DNA of 21,101 nt from a virus: positions 1-21,101 of IMG/VR virus record IMGVR_UViG_3300046750_000304. The stretch is one strand, 5' to 3'. The notes beneath the pieces were generated by a model. It was not told the DNA's origin. It saw only the letters and a list, made by a program, of their open reading frames with translations, and did not search any database. How positions within the stretch are numbered: the stretch's first letter is position 1; the number at the start of each line of letters is the position of its first letter. Made by a program: the position numbers and the translations under genes. Shown one piece after another: positions 1 to 21,101 of the stretch.

Positions 1-1
1 C

Positions 2-2848
2 ATAGGTGTTACACCTTACTCTTATTCAAGATTAACTACTGAAGGTTCAGACAATACAAGTTCTAATTATGCTTTTATTGCTTATAAAGAAAATACAGAC
101 GCTATTCTTTCTTGTAGAAATGATGGTAATGTTTTTATACCTGGTCAAGGAAATTATTTAAAATTTGGCGGTTATAGTTACATTGGTGAAAGTTTAGATG
201 ATTTACATTCTTTAACAATCGCATCTGATTTTACTGAATCAATAAGATTTGCACATTATAATAGAACAACATCAGCTTATGAGCTGAATATGATAATTGA
301 TGATAATTCAAGAGTTGGAATTAACACACCATCCCCAACAACACTTTTACATCTTGACCAAGTATCAAATGATAGAGCTGGTGGTTTATATATTGAAAGA
401 AATGGTAGTAATTATGGTTTAGCGGCATTTGTAAACACAGGTGGTTATGGAATCATTGGAAGTGGTGGGGATTACAATCTTGATATAATAACAATGAATT
501 TTAGTACTGGTAATGTTGGAATTGGAATTTCCGACCCATCAGCGGCAAAATTAGTTGTTAACTCTAGTTCAAACCCACAAATATTAGTAAAAAAACAAAC
601 AAGTGGTGGTGGTGCTGAAATATTATTTGAACATAATTCTGGTGGTACTCAATATGCTAGTATAAAATACGACCAATCTGGTGATAATCAATTATACATA
701 ACAACTGGTTATGATTCGCCAAATGATTTAAACAGAATTTATTTGCAACCTGGTGGCGAAACTGCTTTGACTTTATTTGGTGGTAATAATTCAACTGGTA
801 CTGCTGGAACTGTTACTTTAAATGTAAACGCTTGGTTAAAAGGTTATGCTGTTGCAAATTCAACACAACAAAATTTAATTCGTAGCCGAGCTATGGGTTA
901 TCCTGGCTATTATGGTTTACAAATTGGTCAAGAAACTAATCATATTGCTTTATTTATTGACCCTGGCTCTGTCTCTGGTGGTTCTTTTAGTGGGAATATT
1001 AATGAAATAATGATACCAAATAAAGTTGTTTTTGAACAAGCAAACTCAGCTGGTAACAACTGGCTTTATGGTCAATCAATAACTTTAGACAATGGAAAGC
1101 TAGGGTTAGGAATAATGTCGCCATCAACTAAATTTCACATTCAAGATGGTACTGGTGGTGGCAACCCAACTGATTCAAGAACTAAATTATATATAGATTC
1201 TAGCGGTGAAGCATACATAGGTATAAACGTACCTACAAATTCTTTTGGTGGTATTAGATTAGCCGCTGGTGGCTCTAATAAAGCATTTTTTGAATTATAT
1301 GATAATACAACACAAGGTCAAAAATTAAGTTTAGGTACTGTTGATGCTAGGGATGTTGTTATTAATACTACTAATACTGAGCGTTTAAGAATTAACTCTA
1401 ATGGTAATGTTAATCTTTTAAACACTAGCTCAACTGATAGCAGACATTTTGGAATAACTAATGCGGCTGGAACAACTGGTTGGACATTTGGGAATGGTGT
1501 AATTGCAAATTCACATCAATTTGTTATTTATGATAATACAGCTGGTGATGATAGATTGTTAATAAATAGTAGTGGGGGTGTTGGAATAAACTGCGATGCT
1601 GGAAGTTATCGTTTTAAGATAAACAGTACACAATCAGAAACCGAAGCTATTAGGGTTGAAAAACCTTATAGCTCAGCACGAAATATCGGTAGTGTTGTAC
1701 ATGGCAACAACTTTGTAAGGAATTCCTACGATACGTTTACAATAGCACAATCAGATGTTTCTTGTTTAGTAATAACAGAAACTGTTGCCGCATCAAATCA
1801 AGGTGTTGAGCAAAGATTAACATTGACTGCTGGTGATGGCAAATGTGTTATTGGTACATCATCAACTATAACTAATGGAATGTATTTTAATGTTGCTAGG
1901 TCAACAAACTCACCTGGTTATGTAGCAACAAATGGAATTACAGCATTACGTTTGACTAATAATGGTGATGCAACTTTTTATGCAAATGCAATAGTTCCAA
2001 ATAGTGTATATGTTGGTGATTACATATATCACAAAGATGATACAAACACTTATATAAGGTTTACAGAAGATACATTTACATTTAGAACTGGTGGCGATGA
2101 TAGAGCTATTTTAAATAATAACGCTTTAAATGTTGGACCAGGTACAACAACCTCATCAACAGTAAATGATGGACCGCTAAGAGTTTGTAATAACTCGACT
2201 GGTCAAACTAATATGGGTAGGGGTAGTATTGCTGTTCAATTAGGACCAAAATCAACTAGAACTGCTACTGTTGGTAATTTTTATGGTGGTATTACTTGGA
2301 ATGGTTTATTAAATTATGGCAATGGCACAGGTTATGATATAGCACCTCATGTATGGGTTGGTGCAAAAATGAAAGATTTTCCTGGCTCTGAAAGGTCAAG
2401 TTTTGTTGTAGGTGTTAAATCTGGTTCTGGTTCTACTGGAAGTGGTAATAATATTCCAGTTGAAAGAATGGAAATTGATTATACTGGTAAAATGACTGTA
2501 AGTGGTAATATTTTAGCTACTGGAACAATTACAGCTAATGGTGATATAATAGCTTTTTCAGATAAAAGATTAAAGGAAAATATAAAACCTATTGATAATG
2601 CACTTGAAAAAATAACAAAATTAGAGGGTGTTAGCTATAATAGAATAGATATTGATGATAAATCTAATAAAGTTGGTTTTATCGCTCAAGATGTCAAAAA
2701 AGTATTGCCAGAGGTTGTAAGTGATAATGAGAAATATTTAGGTGTTAGCTATGGTAACATGACAGCAGTATTGGTTGAAGCAATAAAAGAACAACAAAAA
2801 CAAATTGTATCTTTACAAAAAGAAATTAATAATTTAAAAAATAAATAA
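2..2848 (+). CDS. Tail fibre protein with C-terminal S74 intramolecular chaperone domain (5'-partial)
   Basis: The reading frame is open from base 2, so the gene enters from the left; the ATG at 290 is internal. About 948 residues are visible. The body is Gly/Ser/Thr/Asn-rich with degenerate adhesin-like repeats of the form G-x-V-G-I-x-x-x-P (near bases 308, 509, 1093, 1573), typical of beta-rich trimeric fibres. The last ~95 residues are a peptidase S74 (endosialidase-type) chaperone domain beginning SDKRLKENI (Ser at 2558-2560) and including GFIAQDV, followed by a C-terminal coiled coil. In this family the domain drives trimerisation and then cuts itself off at the SD motif using a Ser-Lys pair, so the mature fibre probably ends there. 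The role as receptor-binding fibre is inferred from architecture; the receptor is unknown. It lies one base before the next gene. Confidence 0.88.
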   Translation: MGVTPYSYSRLTTEGSDNTSSNYAFIAYKENTDAILSCRNDGNVFIPGQGNYLKFGGYSYIGESLDDLHSLTIASDFTESIRFAHYNRTTSAYELNMIIDDNSRVGINTPSPTTLLHLDQVSNDRAGGLYIERNGSNYGLAAFVNTGGYGIIGSGGDYNLDIITMNFSTGNVGIGISDPSAAKLVVNSSSNPQILVKKQTSGGGAEILFEHNSGGTQYASIKYDQSGDNQLYITTGYDSPNDLNRIYLQPGGETALTLFGGNNSTGTAGTVTLNVNAWLKGYAVANSTQQNLIRSRAMGYPGYYGLQIGQETNHIALFIDPGSVSGGSFSGNINEIMIPNKVVFEQANSAGNNWLYGQSITLDNGKLGLGIMSPSTKFHIQDGTGGGNPTDSRTKLYIDSSGEAYIGINVPTNSFGGIRLAAGGSNKAFFELYDNTTQGQKLSLGTVDARDVVINTTNTERLRINSNGNVNLLNTSSTDSRHFGITNAAGTTGWTFGNGVIANSHQFVIYDNTAGDDRLLINSSGGVGINCDAGSYRFKINSTQSETEAIRVEKPYSSARNIGSVVHGNNFVRNSYDTFTIAQSDVSCLVITETVAASNQGVEQRLTLTAGDGKCVIGTSSTITNGMYFNVARSTNSPGYVATNGITALRLTNNGDATFYANAIVPNSVYVGDYIYHKDDTNTYIRFTEDTFTFRTGGDDRAILNNNALNVGPGTTTSSTVNDGPLRVCNNSTGQTNMGRGSIAVQLGPKSTRTATVGNFYGGITWNGLLNYGNGTGYDIAPHVWVGAKMKDFPGSERSSFVVGVKSGSGSTGSGNNIPVERMEIDYTGKMTVSGNILATGTITANGDIIAFSDKRLKENIKPIDNALEKITKLEGVSYNRIDIDDKSNKVGFIAQDVKKVLPEVVSDNEKYLGVSYGNMTAVLVEAIKEQQKQIVSLQKEINNLKNK

Positions 2849-2849
2849 A

Positions 2850-3212
2850 ATGGCAGAAATTACTTATAAATGGCAAGTAGATAGCATGAATGAGGACCCT
2901 ATACTAGATGATTTAGAAAATGTTGTAACTTATGTTGGTTTTAGTTATGTTGGAACTGAGCCAATAGAAAATCCTAATGACCCAAAATCAAATTATTGGA
3001 TTGGATATTATAGTACAAATAAAAAACTTTCACCACCAGACCCAAATAATTTTAAACCATTAAATGAATTAACTGAAAGCGAAGTTTTAAGCTGGGTTAC
3101 TGGCGAATATAATGTTGATGATTTAAAACCTAGCATACTACAACAAATAAACGACCAAAAACACCCAACAAATATTCCAATAAATTTACCCTGGAATAAA
3201 AAAGATGTATAA
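2850..3212 (+). CDS. Small fibre-adjacent protein, DUF7936-like
   Basis: This 120-aa protein starts one base after the fibre stop codon, so it is almost certainly co-transcribed and translationally coupled. It has an N-terminal beta-rich half (TYKWQVDSM, then VVTYVGFSYVGTEP), a central region with a PxDxxNFxPLNELTESEVLSWV segment, and a C-terminal INLPW motif. This order (beta strands, a 'LTExEVLxWV' helix, then PLPW near the end) matches from memory a small domain common beside fibre genes of aquatic phages (DUF7936). I did not run a search, so the family name is tentative. The function is unknown; its position suggests a fibre-associated or fibre-assembly role. Acidic, with no signal peptide or membrane segment. 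Confidence 0.72.
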   Translation: MAEITYKWQVDSMNEDPILDDLENVVTYVGFSYVGTEPIENPNDPKSNYWIGYYSTNKKLSPPDPNNFKPLNELTESEVLSWVTGEYNVDDLKPSILQQINDQKHPTNIPINLPWNKKDV

Positions 3213-3214
3213 TT

Positions 3215-3751
3215 ATGGCTTGTCCAAATATTGCAAATGATGAAATCTCAATGTTTAAAACTGGTCGTGAGAGAACTGGAGCTGGTTATGATTCTAGTTA
3301 TAATCTAAGCACACCAATATATATGTCTGATTTACAAAGATTATCTGGTGGTAATACAAGTGGCTCAGGTCAAAATTATCCAGCAGTAAATACATTAAAT
3401 CCAGTTGAAAACCGACCAGATGGTGAAAATCCATTGCAAATGAGTGAATTTAGTGAGTATAACCAAAATGTAACAAGGTCAGCATTTAATTATATATACA
3501 GCTCATCTAGTAGTTCAAATGCTTGTCAAGCTGGTATTCCCTCACCAACTCCTTATTTTCATACTGATGTAAATAATTTGGTGCCAGATGCTGGTGGTGG
3601 TCAATATACTGCATATACAACTATAAGTGGCTCAACAGTTGTTGCGGCTGGTTACTATTCAATTTATTCAACTGGTAATTTTCCTAGTGCAAGTGGAAAA
3701 TATATGCAAGTAGGTAGTAATGGTGCAATTTTATCAATAGGTAATTGTTAA
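3215..3751 (+). CDS. Putative virion structural protein of unknown function
   Basis: A 178-aa protein starting two bases after the previous gene. It is rich in Ser, Gly, Asn and Tyr, with a run of six serines (YIYSSSSSSN), and lacks membrane segments. The N-terminal part contains ISMFKTGRERTGAG and then MSDLQRLSGG, and the middle contains NPLQMSEFSEYNQN. This DLxxxxGG ... PLxMSEF arrangement resembles small structural proteins seen next to fibre genes in marine phages, in which a short N-terminal segment may anchor to the virion. The C-terminal half is Gly/Tyr/Ser-rich and probably beta-structured. I do not recognise a named family. Role inferred only from position and composition: a minor tail or fibre-tip component. 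Confidence 0.7.
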   Translation: MACPNIANDEISMFKTGRERTGAGYDSSYNLSTPIYMSDLQRLSGGNTSGSGQNYPAVNTLNPVENRPDGENPLQMSEFSEYNQNVTRSAFNYIYSSSSSSNACQAGIPSPTPYFHTDVNNLVPDAGGGQYTAYTTISGSTVVAAGYYSIYSTGNFPSASGKYMQVGSNGAILSIGNC

Positions 3752-3761
3752 AATAAATTCT

Positions 3762-3777
3762 TAAATTTGTATAATTA
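3762..3777 (+). promoter_or_regulatory. Candidate promoter -7 box (TAnnTTTG)
   Basis: TAAATTTG at 3762-3769 matches the Bacteroidota -7 consensus TAnnTTTG. It overlaps TTTGTATAATTA (3766-3777), a variant of the 12-base motif seen upstream of other genes here. It lies 12 bases before the ATG at 3790, in a 38-base A/T-rich gap. A clear TTTG at -33 is not visible. Confidence 0.4.
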
Positions 3778-3789
3778 AATTTTTAAAAA

Positions 3790-4026
3790 ATGAGCAAACT
3801 AGAGGAAAAAGAGTTACAAGAATTAAAGCAAACAATAGCTAAACCAAACCAAATTGCAACTGAAATTGGTATGCGAGTAATTGCATATAAATCTATTGAC
3901 AAACTTGTTGATGCATTTGGTGAGGCATCTAAAGAACAACAAGAGTTAATGAAATCAATTGAGGAAAAACATGGCAAAGGTTCTTTAAATATTGATACTG
4001 GCGAAATTACACCAATAGAGGAATAA
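3790..4026 (+). CDS. Small coiled-coil protein of unknown function
   Basis: This 78-aa acidic protein is mostly predicted helix (heptad-like MSKLEEKELQELKQTIAK and FGEASKEQQELMKSIEEK). It ends in a conserved-looking tail, EKHGKGSLNIDTGEITP. Small phage coiled-coil proteins that end in 'KYGxGxINxxxGEI' are common in structural regions, but I know of no assigned function. Its stop codon (4024-4026) overlaps the ATG of the first tail-tube gene at 4026, so the two are translationally coupled. It has its own candidate promoter and opens the tail-tube operon. A minor head-tail or tail-completion component is possible, but that is positional inference only. Confidence 0.72.
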   Translation: MSKLEEKELQELKQTIAKPNQIATEIGMRVIAYKSIDKLVDAFGEASKEQQELMKSIEEKHGKGSLNIDTGEITPIEE

Positions 4027-4493
4027 TGCCAGTTTTAAATGCCAGTAGCTTTTTATTATTAAAAGATACAACAGTTATTGGTCATTCTAAAAGCACATCA
4101 TTCAATATTAATGTAGATACACCAGAATCAACTACAAAAGATAGTTTAGGATGGCGTGAAATTATACCAGGTGTTAAATCTGGTACAATTAATTGTGAGT
4201 GCTTAACTGATTATTCTAACAGCTTAAATTTTGATGAAATTGCCGACATGATTATAACTCGGCAAAAAGCAGTTTTTTATTTTAAAGATACTGTAAACAC
4301 TAAATTAATAGTTAGGGGTGAGGGTTTTATTGTATCGGTTGATGAAACTGCGGAGTTTGAAAATGCAACCTCTTTTAACTTAGACATAAATTTAACTGGT
4401 ATTTTTACAGTTAGTGATGCATCTGAGGGTAAAACATGGGATAATGTCTTTGAAAAATGGGAGGATATTGCTACAAACTGGGAAAATGTATAA
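4026..4493 (+). CDS. Tail tube protein, paralogue 1 (with W-rich C-terminal extension)
   Basis: A 155-aa protein of the phage tail-tube class, which stacks as rings around the tape measure to form the DNA conduit. It shares with the next gene an ordered set of motifs: VIGHSxS near the N-terminus, PExTTKDSxGWREIIPGVKSG in the first third, EIAD in the middle, and GEGFI followed by an Ala-Glu rich strand and an LTGIF strand near the end. The two are clearly homologous, from tandem duplication. This copy has about 25 extra C-terminal residues rich in Trp (KTWDNVFEKWEDIATNWENV). It overlaps the upstream gene by one base. The lower promoter investment and the extension suggest a minor, specialised tube subunit such as a terminal ring, but this is inference. 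Confidence 0.82.
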   Translation: MPVLNASSFLLLKDTTVIGHSKSTSFNINVDTPESTTKDSLGWREIIPGVKSGTINCECLTDYSNSLNFDEIADMIITRQKAVFYFKDTVNTKLIVRGEGFIVSVDETAEFENATSFNLDINLTGIFTVSDASEGKTWDNVFEKWEDIATNWENV

Positions 4494-4501
4494 ATATTTT
4501 A

Positions 4502-4513
4502 TTTGTATATTTG
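4502..4513 (+). promoter_or_regulatory. Strong candidate promoter for the major tail tube gene
   Basis: TTTGTATATTTG contains a perfect Bacteroidota -7 box, TATATTTG (4506-4513), 30 bases upstream of the ATG at 4544 and directly behind the stop codon of the first tube gene. A canonical -33 TTTG at the usual distance is not evident. It would allow the second tube protein to be made in excess of the first. Confidence 0.55.
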
Positions 4514-4543
4514 TCTTAAATTAATAATTAAAAAATATAAATT

Positions 4544-4966
4544 ATGGCTACTGTTGGAGTATTTTCTGGAACTAACTTATTACTAAAATTTGCCGCTGAT
4601 GGTGGTTCACCAGCATCAATTGGACATTCAACATCTTGTTCACTTTCACTATCTAATGATTTGCCAGAGGCAACTACAAAAGATAGCAATGGTTTTCAAG
4701 AGGTTATTGCTGGTGTAAAAAGTGGTGAAATTAGTTTTGAAGGTTTAGTTGCTTATGATGATGCAAATAATGCTATTGAGGCGGCTGATTTTCTTTTAGC
4801 TAGGACAAAATTAGATTGGTCTTTTGGAACTGCCGCTACTGGGGATGAAGTTTATTCTGGTGAGGGTTTTATTAGCTCAATTGAAATGAGTGCCGAAATG
4901 GAATCACCAGTATCTTATTCTGGTTCGATTACTGTTACTGGTGCAATTGCTAAATCAACTAACTAA
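4544..4966 (+). CDS. Major tail tube protein, paralogue 2
   Basis: A 140-aa protein homologous to the preceding gene product. The shared pattern includes IGHSxS, LPEATTKDSNGFQEVIAGVKSG, an Ala-Asp segment, GEGFISS, and a final beta strand ending TGAI. The compact single-domain form without a C-terminal extension fits a major tail-tube subunit, which polymerises in hundreds of copies. It has its own perfect TATATTTG promoter box upstream and a stable hairpin immediately after, features fitting a highly expressed gene. The leader ATATAAATTATGGC is identical to that of the next gene, indicating a shared SD-independent translation signal. Assignment as the major rather than minor copy is inferred from these signals. 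Confidence 0.85.
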   Translation: MATVGVFSGTNLLLKFAADGGSPASIGHSTSCSLSLSNDLPEATTKDSNGFQEVIAGVKSGEISFEGLVAYDDANNAIEAADFLLARTKLDWSFGTAATGDEVYSGEGFISSIEMSAEMESPVSYSGSITVTGAIAKSTN

Positions 4967-4987
4967 GAAAAATAACATATAATCTAA

Positions 4988-5017
4988 AGGGGTATAGCTT
5001 AAGGAAACTATACCCTT
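4988..5017 (+). terminator. Hairpin after the major tail tube gene (attenuator or weak terminator)
   Basis: GGGTATAG (4990-4997) pairs perfectly with CTATACCC (5008-5015), and outer A-U and G-U pairs extend the stem to 10 bp around a 10-base loop. It is followed by TTATATATATA rather than a clean U tract, so it may only partly terminate, or may protect the 3' end of the abundant tube mRNA while allowing some read-through to the chaperone genes. Confidence 0.6.
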
Positions 5018-5032
5018 ATATATATATAAATT

Positions 5033-5419
5033 ATGGCAAACAAGAAACGAGGGTACTACACCCTAAAACTAGGTGGTAAAATGCGAACTATGCATTTTTC
5101 GATGAATTTCTGGTCCAACTTTACTGAACAACTTAATATTTCACTTGACCAAATAGGTGAGGTTTTTGCTGGTGGTATGTCTATAAAAGGTATTAGAGCT
5201 TTGATATATTCTGGCCTTTTAGCACATGACCAAGAGCAAGGTAATGATATTGATTACAATGAATTTAAAGTTGGAATGTGGCTTGAGGATTTTGATTCTG
5301 AAAAATTAAATGATGTGGTAAATGCAATGATGGAATCAAGAATTTTAGGTAATGACTTAAATATGGGAGTTGCTAGAAATATTAAAAAAACCTCAAAACC
5401 TACAAAAGAGGGAAAGTAA
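5033..5419 (+). CDS. Tail assembly chaperone, short form (lambda gpG-like)
   Basis: A 128-aa protein located between the tail tube and tape measure genes, the invariant position of tail assembly chaperones. These bind the tape measure protein and recruit tube subunits, and are absent from the finished virion. The N-terminus is beta-like (YYTLKLGGKMRTMHFSMNF) and the rest mostly helical, as in this group. The last codons read GAG-GGA-AAG-TAA, so the heptamer G GGA AAG abuts the stop codon. This is a classic -1 slippery site, and the overlapping frame gives a longer form. Sequence similarity to gpG itself is not evident; the call rests on synteny, size, the frameshift site and the downstream frame. 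Confidence 0.8.
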   Translation: MANKKRGYYTLKLGGKMRTMHFSMNFWSNFTEQLNISLDQIGEVFAGGMSIKGIRALIYSGLLAHDQEQGNDIDYNEFKVGMWLEDFDSEKLNDVVNAMMESRILGNDLNMGVARNIKKTSKPTKEGK

Positions 5420-5437
5420 CAACCCAGCTGACATGGG
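5410..5437 (+). other. Programmed -1 ribosomal frameshift site (G GGA AAG plus hairpin)
   Basis: The heptamer GGGAAAG occupies 5410-5416 in the correct X XXY YYZ phase, directly before the TAA at 5417-5419. Slippage by -1 continues translation into the frame starting GTA at 5416. After a 6-base spacer, CCCA (5423-5426) can pair with TGGG (5434-5437) around a 7-base loop, a possible stimulatory hairpin. The -1 frame is open only from 5386 (TAA at 5383-5385), so slippage must occur in a ~30-base window, and this is the only well-formed heptamer in it. Confidence 0.8.
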
Positions 5438-5748
5438 ATAGTTTATTGGATTATTATATTGGTCAAGCTGGGATTATGCCAGATATTTTTTGGAAAAATA
5501 CTTGGAAAGAAAATCATTTACTTGGCGAATCACACATGATAAAATCTAATATGCAATGGGAACAAGTAAGGTATATTGCATCAATGTTATATAATGTCAA
5601 TTGCAATAAAAAAGCTCAAATGATTACACCAGATAAATTATTCCCTTTGCCTCAAGATGTCTATTTACAAAGAGGCAAACCAAAATCATCAAAAGATGAA
5701 ATGATGGCATTTAAAAAATTATCTGAATCTAAAAAGCCACAAAAATAA
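5416..5748 (+). CDS. Tail assembly chaperone frameshift extension (gpT-like part of G-T fusion)
   Basis: This 110-codon open frame lies in the -1 frame relative to the upstream gene. It has no ATG near its beginning; the only early start would be a TTG at 5446, in mid-domain and with no leader. The simplest reading is that it is made solely as the C-terminal part of a ~238-aa G-T fusion after slippage at 5410-5416. The encoded segment has the motif G-x-M-P-D-I-F-W-x-x-T-W-x-E near its start, resembling the 'PxxFWxxTxxE' pattern of tail chaperone C-terminal domains, and a basic Lys/Ser-rich end. In lambda the T part binds the tape measure protein. Its stop codon sits in the loop of an intrinsic terminator. 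Confidence 0.75.
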   Translation, partial: VTTQLTWDSLLDYYIGQAGIMPDIFWKNTWKENHLLGESHMIKSNMQWEQVRYIASMLYNVNCNKKAQMITPDKLFPLPQDVYLQRGKPKSSKDEMMAFKKLSESKKPQK

Positions 5749-5773: not shown

Positions 5774-5789
5774 AATAAAATAAAATTAC

Positions 5790-13216: not shown

Positions 13217-13591
13217 ATGTATAAAAACCCATATAGTAAATATTTAGGCAAAGAGGATATATTACAAAACCAGGTCATGAGATACATTGGTTTAAAATAT
13301 CCTAAAGCATTATTTACTCATGTAGCAAATGAAGGTAAACGAACAAAATTTGAACAATACAAAATGAAATATCTAGGCACTAAACCAGGCATACCAGATA
13401 TTATGATTTTTAATCCTAATAAGACAAAGAATGGTTTAGCGATTGAATTAAAAGCTGGGTATAACAAACCCACCGAAAACCAAAAAAAGTGGCTTAAAGA
13501 GCTTAACAATGAGAACTGGGTTGCTGTTTGGCATAATAATTTAGATGAATGTATTGAGACAATAGATAAATATTTTAACAATGGCATCTAA
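13217..13591 (+). CDS. VRR-NUC domain nuclease
   Basis: A 124-aa single-domain protein matching VRR-NUC, a PD-(D/E)XK branch found in phages and fused to the eukaryotic nuclease FAN1. Visible motifs: KEDILQNQVMRYI (Glu-13, Gln-17), ANEGKRT (38-43), PGIPDIMI (Asp-61), LAIELKAG (Glu-77, Lys-79) and TENQKKWL (Gln-89). All catalytic positions are intact. Stand-alone phage VRR-NUC proteins can act on branched DNA such as Holliday junctions, so this is a candidate junction resolvase for the replication and packaging cycle. That function is inferred. The end overlaps the next gene by 11 bases. Confidence 0.85.
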   Translation: MYKNPYSKYLGKEDILQNQVMRYIGLKYPKALFTHVANEGKRTKFEQYKMKYLGTKPGIPDIMIFNPNKTKNGLAIELKAGYNKPTENQKKWLKELNNENWVAVWHNNLDECIETIDKYFNNGI

Positions 13592-13852: not shown

Positions 13853-14698
13853 ATGAAATACAATAAGATATTTAAACCTAAAAAGTTTGATAATTTTACT
13901 ATAATACCTAGCTATATTTTTAGAGACAAAGGTATTTCTGTTGGTGCTACTGGTCTTTATACTTATTTATTTTCACATACTGCCGACCAAGAAATTACTA
14001 TTGAATTTATATGCGGCCATTTTAAAGAGGGTAAAGATGCTGTTAGAGCTAAGATTAAAGAGCTAATTGAATGTGGTTATTTAGAGCGTAAAAGAATAAC
14101 CGATAAAGGTAAATTTAAAGGTTTTAATTATATATTAAAAGCAAACCATAAAGGGAAAAAACCGAAATCGACAAAACCGATGTCGGAAAATCCGCCACAA
14201 AGTAATATTAATAATATATATACTAATAAAAGTAATATTAACCAAGATTCACAAATTGTAAATTCCTATGTACATTTTGTTGATTTATTTGACAAAAGGT
14301 ATCAACCAAAAAGTGATACACAAAAAAATAAATGGATGCAAGTTTTAGATAGATGTGTAAGAATTGATAAATACGATTTAAAAGATATTTATTTAGCTGT
14401 TAAATATCATAGAAACGATGACTTTTGGAAGGACCATTTTTTAACATTACTTAAATTAAGAAATAATGATAAAAATGGAATTATGTTTATTCATCGGTTT
14501 ATGGAAAATTATAAAAAACAAAATAAACCTAAATGCTATTATAAAGTTAAAGGGATAAAAGAATACGTTAACTATGTTGATGTTGATGGGAAAAATAAAC
14601 TAGGAGCAATAACAAAAACTAATAAACTTAATGAATTTAATTTAAGTCAAATATTAGACAGAAATGAAATTAATGAATTGTTAAATTATTTAAAATAA
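13853..14698 (+). CDS. Phage replisome organiser / replication initiator (winged helix, DnaD-like layout)
   Basis: A 281-aa protein with three parts. Residues ~15-95 form a winged-helix domain of the replication initiator type: IPSYIFRDKGISVGATGLYTYLFS, then HFKEGKDAVRAKIKELIE and CGYLERKRITDKGKFKG (each part of one continuous domain). Residues ~97-135 are a polar, low-complexity linker (KGKKPKSTKPMSENPPQS, then Asn/Ile-rich). Residues ~136-235 are helical and may contact helicase or loader. Such proteins bind the phage origin and load the replicative helicase, here probably the primase-helicase at 15131. The linker DNA contains short repeats and an A/T tract like a lambda-O type internal origin. 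Its TAA overlaps the ATG of the next gene. Confidence 0.75.
   Translation: MKYNKIFKPKKFDNFTIIPSYIFRDKGISVGATGLYTYLFSHTADQEITIEFICGHFKEGKDAVRAKIKELIECGYLERKRITDKGKFKGFNYILKANHKGKKPKSTKPMSENPPQSNINNIYTNKSNINQDSQIVNSYVHFVDLFDKRYQPKSDTQKNKWMQVLDRCVRIDKYDLKDIYLAVKYHRNDDFWKDHFLTLLKLRNNDKNGIMFIHRFMENYKKQNKPKCYYKVKGIKEYVNYVDVDGKNKLGAITKTNKLNEFNLSQILDRNEINELLNYLK
14158..14241 (+). other. Candidate replication origin inside the initiator gene
   Basis: AAAACCGA occurs at 14158 and 14173, with a degenerate copy (AAAATCCG) at 14187, spaced 14-15 bases in an unusually G+C-rich patch for this genome. It is followed by A/T-rich DNA with a perfect 13-base direct repeat, AAAGTAATATTAA, at 14199-14211 and 14229-14241. 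Iterons plus an A/T tract in the linker of an initiator gene is the lambda O/ori layout. Not proven. Confidence 0.35.
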
Positions 14699-15090
14699 TG
14701 AGTAAGCTAATTAGGAACAGTAATCAAGTAAAACAAGCTATTGATTTTAGTGGTATTGGTGATGATAAAATACATCCAACAGATATTGATGCTGTTTTAG
14801 AATTTGACAATAAAGCATTAATATTATTTGAGGCAAAAAAAGTTGGTAACAATTTACCTACTGGTCAAAGATTATTACTTGAAAGGTTAGTTGATAGTTG
14901 GCATACAGAAAAATCAATTGCTGTAATTGTAAAACATGATTTTAAAGATGATACAATTGATATACCCCTAGTTGAATGTTGGGTAACTAATTATTATTAT
15001 GATAGTAAATGGTATAAATGCAAAAAACCATTAAAACCATATCTGCAAAATATCTTGGATAAATGGAATATTAAAAAATTATCATTATAA
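14698..15090 (+). CDS. PD-(D/E)XK nuclease-like protein
   Basis: A 130-aa protein coupled to the initiator gene by a one-base overlap. The motif set HPTDIDAVLEF (Asp-29, Asp-31), ALILFEAKKVG (Glu-45, Lys-47) and PTGQRLLLERL (Gln-57) fits a compact PD-(D/E)XK core: acid, hydrophobic strand, E-x-K, then a Gln-containing helix. A later AVIVKHDF and CWVTNYYYDSKWYK look like the remaining strands. This is the third protein of this fold within 3.2 kb. I infer a DNA nuclease in replication or recombination, perhaps a Holliday junction or nicking enzyme. I do not recognise the exact family, and a non-catalytic role cannot be excluded. Confidence 0.62.
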   Translation: MSKLIRNSNQVKQAIDFSGIGDDKIHPTDIDAVLEFDNKALILFEAKKVGNNLPTGQRLLLERLVDSWHTEKSIAVIVKHDFKDDTIDIPLVECWVTNYYYDSKWYKCKKPLKPYLQNILDKWNIKKLSL

Positions 15091-15130: not shown

Positions 15131-16810
15131 ATGAATCACTACAATGAGCTTATTGACTTAGGCATTATACTTAAACGCTCTACTGGCTCGGTCAAAACTA
15201 AATGTCCAAAATGCTCACATACTAGAAAAAACAAAAAAGATGATTGTTTATCTGTTGATATAAATGAGGGTTTATATAATTGTCATAATTGCGGTTGGGG
15301 TGGTAATGTAAAATTTAAACAAAAGGTTGAATATGTTTTACCACCAAAAGTAAATTGTAATTTAAATGACAAAGTAATTAAATGGTTTAATACTAGAGGC
15401 ATTACAGAACCAACATTAATACATTGGAAAATAGGTGAATCATTAGAATATATGCCTCAAGTTCAAGCCAAAAGGCGATGTATAAATTTTAATTATTATA
15501 GGTCAAATGAGGTTATTAATGTTAAATATAGGGATGGTCAAAAGAATTTTAAATTAGTTTCTGGTGCTGAATTAATATTTTATGGTATTGATAATTTAAA
15601 TGATTCTAAAAGATGCTATATAGTTGAGGGTGAAATGGATGCCTTAAGTTTACATGAATCTGGTTTATATAGTGTTTGTTCAGTACCTAATGGAGCCAGT
15701 AAAGGTTCACAAAAATTGGAATATTTAGACAATTGTTGGGAATATTTTAAAGATAAAAAAGAAATAATACTTTGTACCGATAATGATGATGCTGGTTTAC
15801 AATTAAGAAATGAACTGGCTAGGCGGTTTGGAAACTATCGTTGTAAGTATGTTGAGTTTGGTAATTTTAAAGATGCTAATGAAGTTTTAATTAGTAAAGG
15901 TGCGGAAACCTTAAGAAATATAATTAAAGAAGCTAAAAACTTTCCATTAGAGGGTGTTTTAAATATTGATAATATTTGGAATGATGTTTTAAATTTTAAT
16001 GATAATGGCATTACTAATTATAGTATTGGATTGCCAGGGTCAGATGATTATTTTAAAATGGCATTTGGTGAATGGTCAGTTGTAAGCGGTATTCCTAATA
16101 GTGGTAAATCTGATATATTGGACCAAATACTATGCAACTTAGCTACAAAACATGATTTTAGATGTGCCATGTTTTCGCCAGAGAGTTTTCCATACGAGGG
16201 CCATATTAAAAGAATAGCAAATAAATTAAATAATAAAAATTGTAATGCTGATGATTTAAATAATACTAAGGATTTTATTATGGACCATTTTTTTTGGATT
16301 AAGATTGATTTAGAAAACTTAACCCTTAAAGGCATTTTAAATGCATTTAGAGAGCTTGTATTTCAAAAGGGTATTAATGTATGTGTTATTGACCCTTATA
16401 ATATGTTAGACCATTCCGCACAAAGAGATTTTAGTTACATAGGAAAAATATTAAGTCAAATAACACAATTCTGTCAGCAAACTAATACTCATTTATTTTT
16501 AGTGGCACATCCAAGAAAAATTGAAAGTGAGGGTGGTGTATATAAAAAACCAACTCTTTATGATATTTCTGGTTCTGCTGATTTTTTTAATAAGGCATAT
16601 AATGGTTTAATTGCATATAGATGCATAGGCCAAAAAACTAAATATAAAAGTGATGTTGTTAGAATCCATGTTGAGAAAGTAAAGCGTAAAGAAAATGGCC
16701 AACTAGGTGATTTTGAAATTGCACCAGATTTTGATAATGGCGGCATATATAAACCAATTTACAATACTGATAAAAAATTAGAAATAATAAAAGATAATGT
16801 ACCATTTTAA
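15131..16810 (+). CDS. Bifunctional primase-helicase (zinc finger, TOPRIM, DnaB-like ATPase)
   Basis: A 559-aa protein with T7 gp4-like order. A zinc ribbon has CPKC at 25-28 and CHNC at 51-54. A TOPRIM fold has YIVEGEMDALSL with Glu-166 and ILCTDNDDAG with Asp-217/Asp-219. A RecA/DnaB-type helicase domain has Walker A GIPNSGKS at 320-327, a Walker B-like VCVIDPYNML, and HLFLVAHPRK further on, with KPTLYDISGSADFFNKA typical of DnaB-family motifs. It should unwind the fork 5'-3' and lay down RNA primers, ring-shaped and cytosolic. All key residues are present and the length is normal for the family. Its ATG follows a 40-base A/T-only gap. It is the main replication enzyme here; no DNA polymerase gene is seen, so the host polymerase may be used or the gene lies outside the window. 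Confidence 0.93.
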   Translation: MNHYNELIDLGIILKRSTGSVKTKCPKCSHTRKNKKDDCLSVDINEGLYNCHNCGWGGNVKFKQKVEYVLPPKVNCNLNDKVIKWFNTRGITEPTLIHWKIGESLEYMPQVQAKRRCINFNYYRSNEVINVKYRDGQKNFKLVSGAELIFYGIDNLNDSKRCYIVEGEMDALSLHESGLYSVCSVPNGASKGSQKLEYLDNCWEYFKDKKEIILCTDNDDAGLQLRNELARRFGNYRCKYVEFGNFKDANEVLISKGAETLRNIIKEAKNFPLEGVLNIDNIWNDVLNFNDNGITNYSIGLPGSDDYFKMAFGEWSVVSGIPNSGKSDILDQILCNLATKHDFRCAMFSPESFPYEGHIKRIANKLNNKNCNADDLNNTKDFIMDHFFWIKIDLENLTLKGILNAFRELVFQKGINVCVIDPYNMLDHSAQRDFSYIGKILSQITQFCQQTNTHLFLVAHPRKIESEGGVYKKPTLYDISGSADFFNKAYNGLIAYRCIGQKTKYKSDVVRIHVEKVKRKENGQLGDFEIAPDFDNGGIYKPIYNTDKKLEIIKDNVPF

Positions 16811-16819
16811 ATAAAAATT

Positions 16820-17158
16820 ATGAATCAAAAAGAATATCAAGAAACTAGAGAATATATCTTAAATAAAGCTCAGGATATAATGGATGCTAAGCAACCAGAA
16901 TACACAAACAAAAGTATTGATGTATTAAACAATTTTAAAACAACTGCTGAAAGTATAGGTATAAAACCTATGGAAGTTTGGGCGGTGTTTTTTAATAAAC
17001 ATATACAAGCTATATTAACTCATGCTGGTAATCCAAATATGATACAAGCCGAGCCAATTGATAGTCGTTATGCTGATGCAATAAACTATTTGTTTTTAGG
17101 TTTTTCATTACTTGTTGATGAACAAAATAAAAAAGATATAATATCTGGCACAGAATGA
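16820..17158 (+). CDS. Small helical phage protein, possibly nucleotide-modification-associated/MazG-like
   Basis: A 112-aa, mostly helical protein nine bases after the primase-helicase gene. It has the order KAQDIMDAKQPEYTNKSI, VLNNFKTTAESIGIKP, VFFNKHIQAILTHAG, then SRYADAINYLFLGFSLL. The 'NF..AE..GI.P......KH...I ... D..NYL' pattern recalls small phage proteins annotated as nucleotide-modification-associated or DUF1599-like, which have a distant MazG-like, all-alpha look (KH and DxxNY in helices). That assignment is from memory and tentative. A function in nucleotide metabolism would suit the neighbouring replication genes, but it is not shown. The stop overlaps the next start (ATGA). Confidence 0.6.
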   Translation: MNQKEYQETREYILNKAQDIMDAKQPEYTNKSIDVLNNFKTTAESIGIKPMEVWAVFFNKHIQAILTHAGNPNMIQAEPIDSRYADAINYLFLGFSLLVDEQNKKDIISGTE

Positions 17159-17367
17159 ACAAGTATTTGAAAGCTCAAAGCTGGTGTTTAGATAATAATA
17201 TTAAAATCTACATAGTACCTATAAAGCATAAAAAAGAATGTCATATTGAAATAAGCGACAATGGTTTATTTATTAAATCACCAGATACTTATAAAAATCA
17301 ATCAATAGCCAGTAGTAAAATATGGGATTTATACTTGTATTTATATGAAAAAAAGCAAAATAATTAA
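17155..17367 (+). CDS. Hypothetical protein, 70 aa
   Basis: The ATG overlaps the preceding stop codon (ATGA), a standard coupled arrangement, and the gene is the last of the primase-helicase operon. The protein has a short N-terminal helix (MNKYLKAQSWCLDNN), two or three beta strands (IKIYIVPIKHKKECHIEIS, then NGLFIKSP) and a C-terminal helix ending in Lys/Gln/Asn. No motif or family is recognised. It could be a small nucleic-acid-associated protein, given the basic ends, but nothing decides this. A duplicated-type promoter begins just inside its 3' end. Confidence 0.58.
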   Translation: MNKYLKAQSWCLDNNIKIYIVPIKHKKECHIEISDNGLFIKSPDTYKNQSIASSKIWDLYLYLYEKKQNN

Positions 17368-17417
17368 AATAAATTGAAAAAATATTTTGTTATTTAAAAT
17401 ATATTTGTAATTTAGCT
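17364..17417 (+). promoter_or_regulatory. Promoter copy 1 of a duplicated 54-bp promoter region
   Basis: Ungapped alignment with 17830-17883 gives 46 of 54 identical positions by hand count. Conserved elements are TTTG at 17386-17389 and TAATTTAG at 17408-17415, separated by 18 bases, the spacing expected for Bacteroidota -33 and -7 boxes. The nn positions of TAnnTTAG are among the few that differ between copies, as expected for a real box. The ATG at 17459 lies 43 bases after the box. Confidence 0.65.
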
Positions 17418-17458
17418 GTATTAAACAAACAAATTAATATAAATTAAAAATTACAATT

Positions 17459-17764
17459 ATGAATGAATTAAAATTAAACAAAATTGAAAATTTGGGAAGC
17501 GGTGTTAAAATAGCAAATTTAAATTTAAAATTATCAGTTGTATCATCTTATTACGATTCAATAAATTTTGAATTAAGAGCTACTGGTATAGCTGTTAGAG
17601 TTATGAGTGACCATACAGTTGGTGAGTTACAAATATTATTAAACTGGTTAAGCGAGGACAGTAAAGATGATGATAATTTAAGAACAAATCAATCTGAGGT
17701 TATTTTATTTGCAAAAAAAATGATAAAAGCAAATGAATCATTAAAAGAAATAAAAGAACTATAA
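17459..17764 (+). CDS. Hypothetical protein, 101 aa (cassette 1)
   Basis: The only gene of a self-contained transcription unit (own promoter, own terminator). The protein begins with beta-like segments (LKLNKIENLGSGVKIANLNL, SVVSSYYDSINFELRA, GIAVRVMSD), then the helix TVGELQILLNWLSED and an acidic stretch, and ends in a Lys/Glu-rich helix. No membrane segment or signal peptide. I do not recognise a family. Independent control next to the packaging genes suggests expression at a time different from replication, possibly as an accessory or host-takeover factor. That is inference from layout only. Confidence 0.6.
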   Translation: MNELKLNKIENLGSGVKIANLNLKLSVVSSYYDSINFELRATGIAVRVMSDHTVGELQILLNWLSEDSKDDDNLRTNQSEVILFAKKMIKANESLKEIKEL

Positions 17765-17782
17765 AAACCTAATATGAATTAT

Positions 17783-17811
17783 AAGGGAGTTTAAAAGCTC
17801 CCTTTTTTTTT
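17783..17811 (+). terminator. Intrinsic terminator of cassette 1
   Basis: AAGGGAG (17783-17789) pairs with CTCCCTT (17798-17804), 7 bp perfect with a possible eighth U-G pair, followed by a run of nine T bases. The stop codon is followed by AACCTAATAT, also present after the stop of cassette 2. Confidence 0.88.
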
Positions 17812-17829
17812 GCATAAATATTGAAATAA

Positions 17830-17883
17830 TTAAAATAAATTAAAAAAATTCTTTGTAATTAAAAAAATATTTGTATATTAGCT
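17830..17883 (+). promoter_or_regulatory. Promoter copy 2 of a duplicated 54-bp promoter region
   Basis: It carries TTTG at 17852-17855 and TATATTAG at 17874-17881, again 18 bases apart, and about 85% identity to 17364-17417. The gene start at 17925 is 43 bases downstream of the box, exactly as in copy 1. Confidence 0.65.
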
Positions 17884-17884
17884 A

Positions 17885-17894
17885 TGTAATTACA
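17885..17894 (+). promoter_or_regulatory. Palindromic candidate operator at the start of the cassette 2 transcript
   Basis: TGTAATTACA is a perfect 10-bp palindrome lying just downstream of the -7 box TATATTAG, about where transcription should start. A half-site-like TTACAT follows at 17904-17909. It is absent from cassette 1, so it could give this unit its own control. Confidence 0.35.
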
Positions 17895-17924
17895 ACGAAG
17901 TGGTTACATAAACAAAACAAAAAA

Positions 17925-18293
17925 ATGAATACAATTATTAAAAAATTTACAAAATTTACAGAATTAGAAAAACAAGTTATTAGAGCATGGTGTAATCAAA
18001 TTAAGTTTTCAGATGAAACCTTTGAAAAAGATATGCATAGTGCAATTTCTTATTGGGTAATTGAAGCAGAAGAAATATCTAAAGTTACACAAATACCAAC
18101 AAAAAAATTAAGAGGTGTTTTAAGTAGTTTAGTAAAAAAGAATGTTTTTTATGAAGATGAAATTGAAGGCGACACATGGACATCACCAAATAAAATAGCA
18201 TTTTATGCTGGTAATTATTTTTGGGCAGATTATGCAGTAGCCAACCAAATAGATGATTGTAACATGGCCAAAGTTTATGATGCAATAAAATAA
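17925..18293 (+). CDS. Hypothetical protein with possible winged-helix segment, 122 aa (cassette 2)
   Basis: I use the ATG at 17925. The frame is open further upstream to a TTG at 17871, but that would place the start inside the promoter box, so it is rejected. The protein is mostly helical at the N-terminus (NTIIKKFTKFTELEKQVIRA), and its middle, EEISKVTQIPTKKLRGVLSS followed by LVKKNVFYEDEIEGD, resembles a winged helix (HTH plus wing). The end is aromatic (FYAGNYFWADYAV). The presence of a DNA-binding-like fold is tentative. It is the only gene in its unit and could regulate itself through the palindrome in its leader. No family recognised. Confidence 0.62.
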   Translation: MNTIIKKFTKFTELEKQVIRAWCNQIKFSDETFEKDMHSAISYWVIEAEEISKVTQIPTKKLRGVLSSLVKKNVFYEDEIEGDTWTSPNKIAFYAGNYFWADYAVANQIDDCNMAKVYDAIK

Positions 18294-18295
18294 AA

Positions 18296-18334
18296 CCTAA
18301 TATAAAAAGCCAGGTTAATTCTATTGGCATTAGG
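18296..18334 (+). other. Nested inverted repeat in the 3' leader of cassette 2
   Basis: CCTAAT (18296-18301) can pair with ATTAGG (18329-18334), and GCCA (18309-18312) with TGGC (18325-18328) inside it, leaving a 7-base bulge. It lies between the stop codon and the terminator and may be an RNA element or 3'-end stabiliser. Weak evidence. Confidence 0.25.
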
Positions 18335-18339
18335 TAATC

Positions 18340-18368
18340 AAAGGGGGTTTTACAACTCCCTTTTTTTT
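18340..18368 (+). terminator. Intrinsic terminator of cassette 2
   Basis: AAAGGGGG (18340-18347) pairs with CTCCCTTT (18356-18363), 8 bp with one G-U pair, and the tail contains eight T bases (18361-18368). It sits four bases before the next candidate promoter box. Confidence 0.85.
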
Positions 18369-18379
18369 ATGTATTTTTG
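18368..18379 (+). promoter_or_regulatory. Candidate promoter of the packaging operon
   Basis: TATGTATTTTTG includes the -7 box TATTTTTG (18372-18379). Only four bases separate it from the ATG at 18384, so a transcript from it would be leaderless or nearly so. The region upstream is the terminator of cassette 2, and no -33 box is clear. Confidence 0.45.
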
Positions 18380-18383
18380 TTAA

Positions 18384-18743
18384 ATGGCAATTAGACAAGT
18401 TTCGACACATAAAAAAAGATTAATGCTTAAAGCATTGGAAAAAAGTTTATCAGTTGTTACAACAGCTGTAAAACAAGTTGGCATTGATAGACAAACACAT
18501 TACAACTGGTTAAAGAAGGACCCAGAGTATGCCGCCAAAGTAAAAGACATTGAGAATGTCACATTAGATTTTGCGGAAAGCCAATTACATGAACAGATAC
18601 GAGAGGGCAATGTAACAGCAACTATATTTCTATTAAAAACAAAAGGGAAAAAAAGAGGGTATATCGAGAGACAAGAAATACAGCACGATAGCACTATTGA
18701 AAGCAAACTAATTGAATGGACACCAGCCAAAGACAAAAAGTAA
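18384..18743 (+). CDS. terS: Terminase small subunit
   Basis: A 119-aa protein directly upstream of, and overlapping, the large terminase gene. The N-terminal helix-turn-helix, SLSVVTTAVKQVGIDRQTHY followed by NWLKKDPEYAAKV, is of the small-terminase type that recognises the pac or cos site. The central helices (IENVTLDFAESQLHEQIREG) and NVTATIFLLKTKGKKRGYIE match a family often annotated as phBC6A51-like. The basic, polar C-terminus would contact the large subunit. It should oligomerise into a ring that selects phage DNA for packaging. The overlap with the next gene is 28 bases. Confidence 0.85.
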   Translation: MAIRQVSTHKKRLMLKALEKSLSVVTTAVKQVGIDRQTHYNWLKKDPEYAAKVKDIENVTLDFAESQLHEQIREGNVTATIFLLKTKGKKRGYIERQEIQHDSTIESKLIEWTPAKDKK

Positions 18744-19897
18744 CTGAGTATTGCAATAAACAATTTTACCAGGCGGTTAACTCAGATAAAAGATTAAACA
18801 TATTTCAAGGCGGTACTAGAAGCGGTAAATCTTGGTCACTAATGCAATACTGTTTATACTTAATGACTACTCATAAAGAGCCACTAACAATATCAATAGT
18901 TCGTAAAACATTACCAGCTCTTAAAAGGTCAGTATTAAGGGATTTTTTACATATATCCAAACAGCTGGGTATCTACTGGCATGGAGTGCATAATAAAACA
19001 GAAAACACTTTTGAATACAATGGCCATACATTAGAAATGTTTAGTGCGGATGATGCACAAAAAATTAGGGGGTCAGCTAGGGATATATTATGGATTAATG
19101 AGGGTAATGAATTATTTTTTGAGGATTACCAGCAATTGGTAATGCGGACCAGAAAAAACATTTATATTGATTTTAACCCATCAGACCCAGTACACTATTT
19201 ATATGATTTAGCTGAGCGTGATGATGCGGCATTATTTATAAGCACATATAAGGATAATAAGTTTTTACCAAAAGAGTTAGTTGATGAAATTGAAAGGATT
19301 AAAGAGCGTGACCCAGATTACTGGCGTGTATATGGTGAGGGCCAAAGAGCTGAGTTTAGTGAAAAACAAATATTTAAGAATTGGAATTATATTCCTTATA
19401 AAGATTTTCCACAATTAGATGATGAGGTGCTGGGATGTGATTTTGGATTTAGCCAAGACAATTTAGCTATTGTAAAAGTTGGTAAACATAAAAATAATTT
19501 ATACATACATGAGCTTATTTATAAAAAGGGAATGACTAACAGAGACATTGCAAACTTTATTATGGATAGTAAATTAGATGATATGCTAATGTATTGTGAT
19601 AGTGCCGAACCAAAATCAATTGAGGAATTAAGACAAATGAGTGTATTGGCCAAAGGTGCTGTAAAAGGTCAAGGTTCAATTAATGCTGGTATTAGCTTAT
19701 TAAAAGAATTTGATATATATGTTAGTGAGGAATCAGTTAATATATTAAAAGAGCAAATGAGTTACATATATGATGAGTTAAAAGATGGCACAATAATCAA
19801 TAAACCAAAAGCAAATCAACAAGACCATTTGCTAGATAGTATTAGATATTGTGTTTATTCAAGGTGGCGGAATCGCAACGATTTCTTTGTTGTATAA
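18716..19897 (+). CDS. terL: Terminase large subunit (PBSX/Terminase_3 type)
   Basis: A 393-aa packaging motor. The ATPase has Walker A GGTRSGKS (32-39) and the Walker B-like ILWINEGNE (124-132; catalytic Glu-129), with SIVRKTLPALKRSV as an adenine or coupling motif and QKIRGSARD before Walker B. The RuvC/RNase H-like nuclease has GCDFGFSQDN (near 240), MYCDSAEP (near 295) and DHLLDSIRY (near 370), the three acidic clusters expected. It packages DNA into the prohead with ATP and cuts the concatemer. Its ATG lies inside the small-subunit gene, 28 bases before that gene's end, the usual coupled arrangement. Length is close to the family norm. Confidence 0.95.
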   Translation: MDTSQRQKVTEYCNKQFYQAVNSDKRLNIFQGGTRSGKSWSLMQYCLYLMTTHKEPLTISIVRKTLPALKRSVLRDFLHISKQLGIYWHGVHNKTENTFEYNGHTLEMFSADDAQKIRGSARDILWINEGNELFFEDYQQLVMRTRKNIYIDFNPSDPVHYLYDLAERDDAALFISTYKDNKFLPKELVDEIERIKERDPDYWRVYGEGQRAEFSEKQIFKNWNYIPYKDFPQLDDEVLGCDFGFSQDNLAIVKVGKHKNNLYIHELIYKKGMTNRDIANFIMDSKLDDMLMYCDSAEPKSIEELRQMSVLAKGAVKGQGSINAGISLLKEFDIYVSEESVNILKEQMSYIYDELKDGTIINKPKANQQDHLLDSIRYCVYSRWRNRNDFFVV

Positions 19898-19912
19898 AAA
19901 AGAATTTATTAT

Positions 19913-19924
19913 TTTGTATTTTTA
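19913..19924 (+). promoter_or_regulatory. Promoter-motif variant before the portal gene
   Basis: TTTGTATTTTTA differs by one base from TTTGTAnnTTTG and lies 17 bases before the portal ATG in a 44-base A/T-rich gap. Similar sequence stands before the tape measure gene. May be a weak internal promoter. Confidence 0.35.
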
Positions 19925-19941
19925 CATAAAATTTTATATTA

Positions 19942-21101
19942 ATGGCAACATTCTTTGATAGGTTAAGGTCTATAATAACCAGTAAATCCCAAAATACAAG
20001 TGAACAATATAACCGAGCAATTTATAATTGGCTCGGCAATACTATTGTTTGGAATAGTGAAAATGATGAAACCTATATAAATGATGGTTACAGAAAAAAT
20101 GCAACTATTTATTCAATTGTAAATATTATTACTAAGGCGGCATCTACAATACCCTATCACATTTATCGTAAGGTAAATGACAATAGCTATAAAAGATATA
20201 AGGCAATGAGTAGTGGTATTGCTGACCCTAATGTTATGCTTAAATCTAATATGTTAAAAAAACACGCTCTTGTTGAGCTTGAGCATACTGATTTACATAA
20301 ACTATTAGAGCGACCAAATCCAGCTCAATCCTATGCAACATGGATTACAGAAATGATAGCATTTGGTAAATTAACTGGTAACCGATACATCTATGGTATT
20401 GGCCCAGAAACTGGTGATAATATTAATAAATATACTGAGCTTTACATTATGCCCAGCCAGATTATGGAAATAAATTCTGGGGGTATAATGAAGCCAGTTG
20501 AATCATATACTATTGAGTATAATGGTACATACCATATACCAGCTGACCAAATGTGCCATATAAAAGATTTTAACCCTTTTTATGATGGTACTGGTTCACA
20601 TCTTTATGGTCAATCACCTCTAAAAGCTGGTTTACGTTCAATGACTACTAACAATGAGGCGACAGAAAGCGGAGTTAAATTTTTACAAAACCAGACAGCT
20701 AGGGGTTTATTAATGAGTGATGAGGGTGATTTAAATGAGGTACAAGCTCAACAATTAAAAGATAAATTTAGGAAGGAGCATCAAGGTAGTAAAAAAGCTG
20801 GTGATATTATTATAACTCCAAAAAAATTATCATGGGTTAACTTTGGTTTAAATGCTAGTGATATGAGTTTAATTGAGCAATATAATGCATCAATAAAAGA
20901 TTTATGTAACATCTACAATGTGCCAGTACAATTATTAAATAATACTGAAAGCTCAACATATAACAATATGAAAGAAGCTAAAAAGGCATTATATCAAAAT
21001 TGTGTTATTCCTGAGTTAATGAAAATACAAGATGAGTTAAATAGGTGGTTAGCTCCAATGTATGGTGATGATATTTGTATTGAATATGACTTTAGTGTTA
21101 T
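19942..21101 (+). CDS. Portal protein, HK97 family (3'-partial)
   Basis: The frame opens with an ATG at 19942 and stays open to the window edge, giving 386 residues, so the gene is cut at its C-terminus. The N-terminal part (MATFFDRLRSIITSKSQ) is typical. The conserved layout includes GYRKNATIYSIVNIITKAAS near the start, then LHKLLERPNP, GKLTGNRYIYG, MPSQIMEI, DQMCHIKDFNP and GQSPLKAGLRS, and later GVKFLQNQTARGLL and YNVPVQLLNNTESSTYNNMK. This is the HK97/SPP1-like portal family ('LL..PNP...W..E......GN.YI', 'P...L'). The ring of twelve portal subunits docks the terminase at the head vertex. It follows the terminase genes in the standard order, and further head genes are expected beyond the edge. 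Confidence 0.92.
   Translation, partial: MATFFDRLRSIITSKSQNTSEQYNRAIYNWLGNTIVWNSENDETYINDGYRKNATIYSIVNIITKAASTIPYHIYRKVNDNSYKRYKAMSSGIADPNVMLKSNMLKKHALVELEHTDLHKLLERPNPAQSYATWITEMIAFGKLTGNRYIYGIGPETGDNINKYTELYIMPSQIMEINSGGIMKPVESYTIEYNGTYHIPADQMCHIKDFNPFYDGTGSHLYGQSPLKAGLRSMTTNNEATESGVKFLQNQTARGLLMSDEGDLNEVQAQQLKDKFRKEHQGSKKAGDIIITPKKLSWVNFGLNASDMSLIEQYNASIKDLCNIYNVPVQLLNNTESSTYNNMKEAKKALYQNCVIPELMKIQDELNRWLAPMYGDDICIEYDFSV

Follow-up and report, generated by a model that had tools for sequence, protein, structure and literature searches.

The window analysed here, a stretch of 21,101 nucleotides from IMG/VR virus record IMGVR_UViG_3300046750_000304 (positions 1 to 21,101), is a fragment of the genome of an AT-rich tailed phage and does not contain a single GATC. 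Phages that carry its small gene nuc130, a putative endonuclease gene, lack GATC almost without exception, and relatives with an unrelated gene at the same place keep GATC and lack another word, AGNCT. These patterns are probably best explained by swappable, solitary site-specific nucleases, encoded by phages without a methyltransferase, to which the carrier would be immune because its genome lacks the site.

According to this explanation, the window phage would encode in nuc130 a GATC-specific endonuclease or nickase with no matching methyltransferase. The likeliest targets of the enzyme would be GATC sites in the host's chromosome, in plasmids and co-infecting phages, or in both; the phage's own DNA would be safe solely through the removal of every GATC, mostly by synonymous changes. 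Self-cutting would select for the loss of sites and then permanently enforce it. The gene's slot in the replication module would be open to exchange among small nucleases of differing specificity. Each would keep its own word out of the genome, and words that a previous slot gene had purged would linger. A new nuclease gene is expected to kill a site-rich genome, so that it may enter already purged genomes only.

Loss of GATC and the gene nuc130

The initial annotation had described GATC as apparently absent from the window, and the exact count was indeed 0. A maximal-order Markov model predicted 37.5 copies (z = -7.0), making GATC the most depleted 4-mer, and dinucleotide shuffles predicted 27.6±5.3. 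Shuffling of synonymous codons in 29 genes, with the proteins kept, gave 41.4±3.7 copies and a minimum of 29 in 300 shuffles. The three controls agree.

The codon preferences described in the same annotation held when they were counted, and each example cited for them was found at its place. Before C, aspartate was encoded by GAC in 31 of 31 cases, while GAT prevails elsewhere (333 GAT, 34 GAC). Arginine before TC was AGG seven times and never AGA, against 112 AGA and 39 AGG at other positions, and glycine before TC was GGT, GGC or GGG in 32 cases and GGA in none. In addition, the serine codon following NGA was AGY in 7/7 cases in the window genes, and the isoleucine codon ATC was never used after a codon ending in G (0/35). 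Selection against GATC works via synonymous codons. Other words with zero copies in the window are GCGC, CCGG, CGCG, ACGG/CCGT, CCCG/CGGG, CASTG, GCWGC and AGNCT. Apart from AGNCT, these words are missing, along with several 6-mer palindromes, from the window and its relatives L001-L006; ACGG and CCCG are non-palindromic.

Eighty IMG/VR relatives of the window were retrieved by terminase (L numbers are the labels of the relatives and loci compared). The window and L001-L006 form a clade (support 100/100) in which GATC is 0 in each member. The sister contigs L009/L010 contain 85 GATC for 66 expected, and more distant family members are mostly normal. None of 48 aligned GATC sites of L010 was kept in the window clade, where 54% of all 4-mers were kept, and 38 of the 48 differ from it by a single substitution. 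At 35 sites with GATC in both sister and outgroup, none was kept in the window clade; control words were kept at 37-87%. The protein was unchanged in 12 of the 14 testable cases among these 35 ancestral sites. Judged from these alignments, the loss of GATC is recent and lineage-specific in the window clade.

The association of this loss with nuc130 was clear. The first scan of IMG/VR used the nuc130 protein alone, blind to GATC, and returned 24 loci in different phages, of which 24/24 had no GATC. A second scan with a nuc130 alignment added 66 loci, 64 of them with zero GATC; about 95 of the approximately 406 IMG/VR relatives of nuc130 were read for GATC. Among nuc130 contigs of at least 5 kb, with duplicates removed, 81 of 83 lacked the word (15 copies observed, 2,440 expected, in 1.07 Mb). 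In the two exceptions, GATC is confined to one patch, with 8 copies within the first 2.5 kb of 13.2 kb in L147 and 4 inside 260 bases in L167. An unbiased scan of all 4- to 6-mers in nuc130 carriers placed GATC first; no other word is missing in nearly all of them. Among named phages, a nuc130 homolog (37.5% identity) was found in one only, the Tenacibaculum jumbo phage pT24, which has 0 GATC in 234,670 bases for 719 expected. Over the same bases (L122-L127), CCGG was found 0 times for 81 expected and GGCC once for 42.

Within the window's family, gene-content comparison showed nuc130 to be confined to GATC-free loci, and its neighbour genes occur in dozens of GATC-bearing loci. The VRR-NUC gene of the window and a nuclease-like gene of L003 (8785-9237) were ruled out as determinants of the GATC state, both being common to GATC-bearing relatives.

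The protein displays the residues H26-P27-x-D29-I-D31, E45-x-K47, G56-Q57 and R63, and contains the signature D ... (D/E)-x-K of PD-(D/E)XK nucleases. D29, D31, E45, K47, Q57 and R63 are invariant in 47 homologs, and the D, E and K residues are also present in the pT24 homolog. The ratio of nonsynonymous to synonymous substitution rates (dN/dS) of 0.07-0.18 indicates purifying selection and therefore a working gene. In an AlphaFold2 model (predicted local distance difference test score 82.9), the order strand-strand-helix-strand is compatible with a PD-(D/E)XK core. Homologs were found in virus records only; the nuc130 profile matched 0 of 395 Bacteroidota genomes, and the gene was absent from the plasmids searched. 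A sequence search of the PDB with nuc130 gave no matches, and none of its homologs matched the Pfam families of restriction enzymes, DpnII included, at E up to 10. The neighbours of nuc130 are a helix-turn-helix (HTH) gene and a primase gene, with no cognate methyltransferase beside it, and the methylase motif [DNS]PP[YFWH] was not detected in open reading frames of at least 100 amino acids in the window, L003 and L006.

From the genome-wide absence of the site in its carriers, nuc130 is predicted to be a GATC-cutting endonuclease. Alternatively, it could bind GATC in another role, as a repressor, recombination or packaging factor, with the absence of GATC preventing harmful self-binding. The small size of the protein and its primase neighbour would suit such a role. 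Its invariant D...E-x-K residues and strand-strand-helix arrangement are in keeping with a nuclease, and lethal cutting accounts better than binding for the complete removal of one word; a role in binding alone is very unlikely.

Gene exchange and missing words

In the window's relatives, the slot between the HTH gene and the primase gene (Table 1) is occupied either by nuc130 or by an unrelated gene of 166-170 amino acids with the motif lyPDF...DVKVN. The latter, present before the primase in L022 and 36 other loci, has a weak match to DUF5843/phrog_18407. Among primase-bearing loci, 39/39 with nuc130 were GATC-free and 37/37 with the 166-170 amino acid gene were GATC-bearing; none had both. 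The 37 contigs with the latter gene (523 kb) contained 1,741 GATC for 1,545 expected. An unbiased motif scan revealed that a different word, AGNCT, was absent from all of them (AGCCT/AGGCT 0/316 and AGACT/AGTCT 0/206; 0 of 522 expected). In nuc130 carriers as a set, the corresponding counts were 1,098/1,235 and 1,498/1,775, or 84-89% of expectation. Slot gene and missing word thus show a double dissociation, nuc130 going with GATC and the 166-170 amino acid gene with AGNCT. Four changes of the slot gene, matched by four changes of the GATC state, are seen on the primase tree.

The window clade is nested among carriers of the 166-170 amino acid gene and has 0-2 AGNCT per contig. Other nuc130 phages near these carriers mostly have 0-6 (19 in L120), and more distant ones up to 51. 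This gradient suggests that the absence of AGNCT from the window is probably the decaying fossil of a previous slot gene. The sister contigs L009/L010, which end short of the slot, have 0 AGNCT and normal GATC, and are predicted to carry the 166-170 amino acid gene. Upstream of this gene, the slot contains an extra gene in L018, L026 and L035, coding for a PAPS-reductase-like protein of about 281 amino acids (LSGGKTSSY), and in L050, coding for a methyltransferase-like protein of 157 amino acids.

A candidate for a third pair of word and gene is CATG with another PD-(D/E)XK-like gene, of 130 amino acids. CATG was missing in 18 of 20 loci with this gene (14 observed, 483 expected) and in 11/11 close members; in the named phage ct2KA10 (L343) it was 0/106. 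Examples of the gene are L158:10382-10768 (-), where it adjoins nuc130, and L153:3471-3860. Profile comparison did not detect homology among nuc130, the 166-170 amino acid gene, the CATG gene and nucB (see below). Carriers of a family of 110 amino acids (L232:735-1064 and 11 other loci) are nearly devoid of CTAG, with 2 copies observed for 446 expected; CTAG and some other pairs from the association scan may be clade markers only. The non-palindromic CAGG/CCTG is absent from L078 (62 expected), and the FokI-type site GGATG/CATCC is absent from L066 and L068 (15 and 11 expected).

The window further encodes a tail fibre with a chaperone-like end, a tape measure protein, the recombination proteins Erf and exonuclease VIII, a DnaA-like protein and a portal protein. 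By portal, the window comes closest to Cellulophaga phages (32%) among named relatives, and its host is therefore likely to be a marine flavobacterium. A prophage search of genome contigs for the host returned distant terminases only.

Table 1. Features of the window (positions in the 21,101-base stretch)
Feature	Position	Strand	Remark
GATC-free region	1..21101		0 copies; relative L003, standing for the remainder of the genome, likewise has none
AGNCT absence	1..21101		probable fossil of an earlier 166-170 amino acid slot gene
VRR-NUC gene	13217..13591	+	
HTH_36 gene	13853..14698	+	5' border of the exchange slot
nuc130	14698..15090	+	130 amino acids; putative PD-(D/E)XK endonuclease, predicted to cut GATC; its start and the stop of the preceding gene overlap
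DNA primase/helicase	15131..16810	+	3' border of the exchange slot
Terminase large subunit	18716..19897	+	query for finding relatives

nucB and the causes of GATC loss

The idea that GATC absence needs nuc130 was ruled out by many GATC-free phages that lack the gene over their whole records. When two genes that neighbour nuc130 in other phages were used for scanning, 37/70 and 21/62 of the loci without nuc130 turned out to be GATC-free. Over whole records, nuc130 was missing in 39 such phages, of which 38 were GATC-free and one had a single site. A gene-motif association scan and its follow-up led to a second putative nuclease gene, nucB, which is unrelated to nuc130. It codes for 114-125 amino acids with an E-x-K and a GN..E motif and belongs to phrog_13596, of unknown function (e.g. 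L200:3722-4063 and L320:11018-11392). All 27 nucB loci were GATC-free and none carried nuc130. Ten named nucB phages were read (HTVC019P, HTVC011P, HTVC025P, HTVC031P, HTVC104P, HTVC115P, HMO-2011, CRP-143, C72C1 and C75C1), with 29-52% G+C; 0 GATC were found for 939 expected in the stretches read. Carriers of nucB include Pelagibacter and Puniceispirillum phages. On the Pelagibacter host HTCC1062, four nucB phages have 0 GATC, and HTVC010P, without nucB, has 131 of 139 expected; on this host the absence of GATC is dissociated from the host and tracks the phage gene. Since nucB adjoins the DNA polymerase gene in T7-like phages, the host chromosome is a probable target; several nucB phages also carry endonuclease I.

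The initial annotation had read the absence of GATC as selection acting through synonymous codons under host restriction. The selection stood. Host restriction as the best cause did not: it is possible, but GATC status follows the phage gene. If host restriction alone were the cause, GATC restriction-modification of the DpnII/MboI/Sau3AI type in the hosts would have driven the purge, nuc130 being an unrelated gene common in such phages. Phages widely avoid the sites of host restriction (PMC6286503), GATC-free phages with neither nuc130 nor nucB exist, other restriction-like words are missing too, and both Tenacibaculum jumbo phages that were checked are GATC-free although only one has nuc130. 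As the sole cause it is nevertheless improbable, given that the window's closest relatives, phages of the same type, have their full complement of GATC, that two unrelated slot genes each go with their own missing word, and that GATC absence follows the phage gene on HTCC1062. DpnII-family enzymes passed the cut-off in 5 of 198 Bacteroidota genomes, a figure for the DpnII family only, as other GATC enzymes were not searched.

Several observations weigh against the proposal that nuc130 and similar genes encode nucleases which enforce site loss. No Pfam or PHROG family matches the window's nuc130 protein, and a PDB fold search gave Hjc resolvases, Cas4-like and cap-snatching nucleases with weak, non-significant scores (E 0.08-0.6). 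Only two contrasts among the four switches on the primase tree are strongly supported and independent. HTVC008M, from the same host HTCC1062, has no nucB in its first 50 kb, yet its GATC is depleted (24/130). Moreover, 28 GATC-free loci have neither nuc130 nor nucB, besides four fragments not covering the slot, and the Tenacibaculum phage PTm1 (L349) shows 0/124 GATC in 50 kb with no detectable nuc130 or nucB, which points to another cause or a third GATC nuclease. Since GATC-free phages with neither gene exist, other causes must also act, be it host restriction, other nucleases or the nucleases of competitors.

Such causes bear on the order of events. As a sub-case of the nuclease explanation, and not exclusive of it, genomes could have been emptied by host restriction or by nucleases of other phages and then have accepted a GATC nuclease gene that locked the absence; a purge by host restriction may have preceded the arrival of the gene. 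An incoming nuclease gene is expected to be lethal to a genome with dozens of sites, the GATC-free phages without the gene could be recipients, and the same association of gene and word is predicted. In the window's family, however, nuc130 is present in every GATC-free locus that covers the slot, and no intermediate was seen. We regard this order as quite possible, if short of probable.

Missing restriction sites in phages are commonly interpreted as traces left by host restriction, and here they point to the phage's own genes. Tentatively, these genes can be seen as an interchangeable arsenal of solitary, methyltransferase-free, site-specific phage nucleases (at least two GATC families, one for AGNCT and one for CATG), each going with the complete loss of its word. 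If they are used against co-infecting phages, every phage in a community would come to purge the words that its competitors cut. Missing words might then be a record of phage-phage warfare, both past and ongoing, and palindrome avoidance would have a cause other than host restriction. If true, missing words would predict the targets of uncharacterised phage nucleases from sequence alone, four unannotated protein families would gain a function, two of which occur in Pelagibacter and flavobacterial phages, both abundant in the sea, and site avoidance would be explained in phages whose hosts lack a matching restriction system.

Relation to known systems

That viruses encode restriction enzymes, and protect themselves by methylation or modified bases, is already known. 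T7 endonuclease I and T4 endonuclease II break down host DNA; the former is structure-specific, and hydroxymethylcytosine protects T4. As an early replication-module nuclease that possibly feeds nucleotides to the phage, nuc130 would resemble both. Chlorella viruses shield their own DNA by methyltransferases. Methylation protects there, and total site loss would protect here. Site-specific nucleases of these viruses, and the enzyme HHPV4I of an archaeal virus, are thought to degrade host DNA or to exclude other viruses (PMC10101028). HHPV4I targets Gm6ATC, similarly to the site predicted for nuc130, but needs methylated sites, and in the nuc130 phage no methyltransferase was found. The sequence comparison of nuc130 with these viral enzymes was confined to Pfam and PDB searches, which came out empty. 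In the DNA-modification/endonuclease pairs of jumbo phages, predicted nucleases of the restriction endonuclease fold attack host or superinfecting DNA (Iyer et al., 2021, PMC7824862); those phages shield their DNA by modified bases, whereas the window phage would be protected by the lack of sites. Host DNA or co-infecting phages are known or proposed targets of viral nucleases (PMC10101028, PMC11620839, PMC7824862). In the open-access literature, available mostly as abstracts, no description was found of solitary phage nucleases whose carriers are protected by lacking the nuclease's site throughout the genome.

That phages avoid the restriction sites of their hosts is well known (PMC6286503). 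DpnII, MboI and Sau3AI have the same four-base target as predicted for nuc130 and leave the same selective footprint on phage genomes, but they are host-encoded and paired with a methyltransferase, whereas nuc130 is phage-borne, solitary and without Pfam match. The lack of a neighbouring methyltransferase, and of any match in the 395 Bacteroidota genomes, speaks against nuc130 being part of a host Type II restriction-modification system. The phage homing endonuclease gp210 acts in interference competition, harming co-infecting phages while its carrier is without the target (PMC11620839). A homing endonuclease identity does not fit nuc130 either, as GATC was lost genome-wide by point changes (38/48 by single substitution): homing enzymes cut one long site, which insertion of their gene removes, whereas in the case of nuc130 a four-base word is lost from the whole genome.

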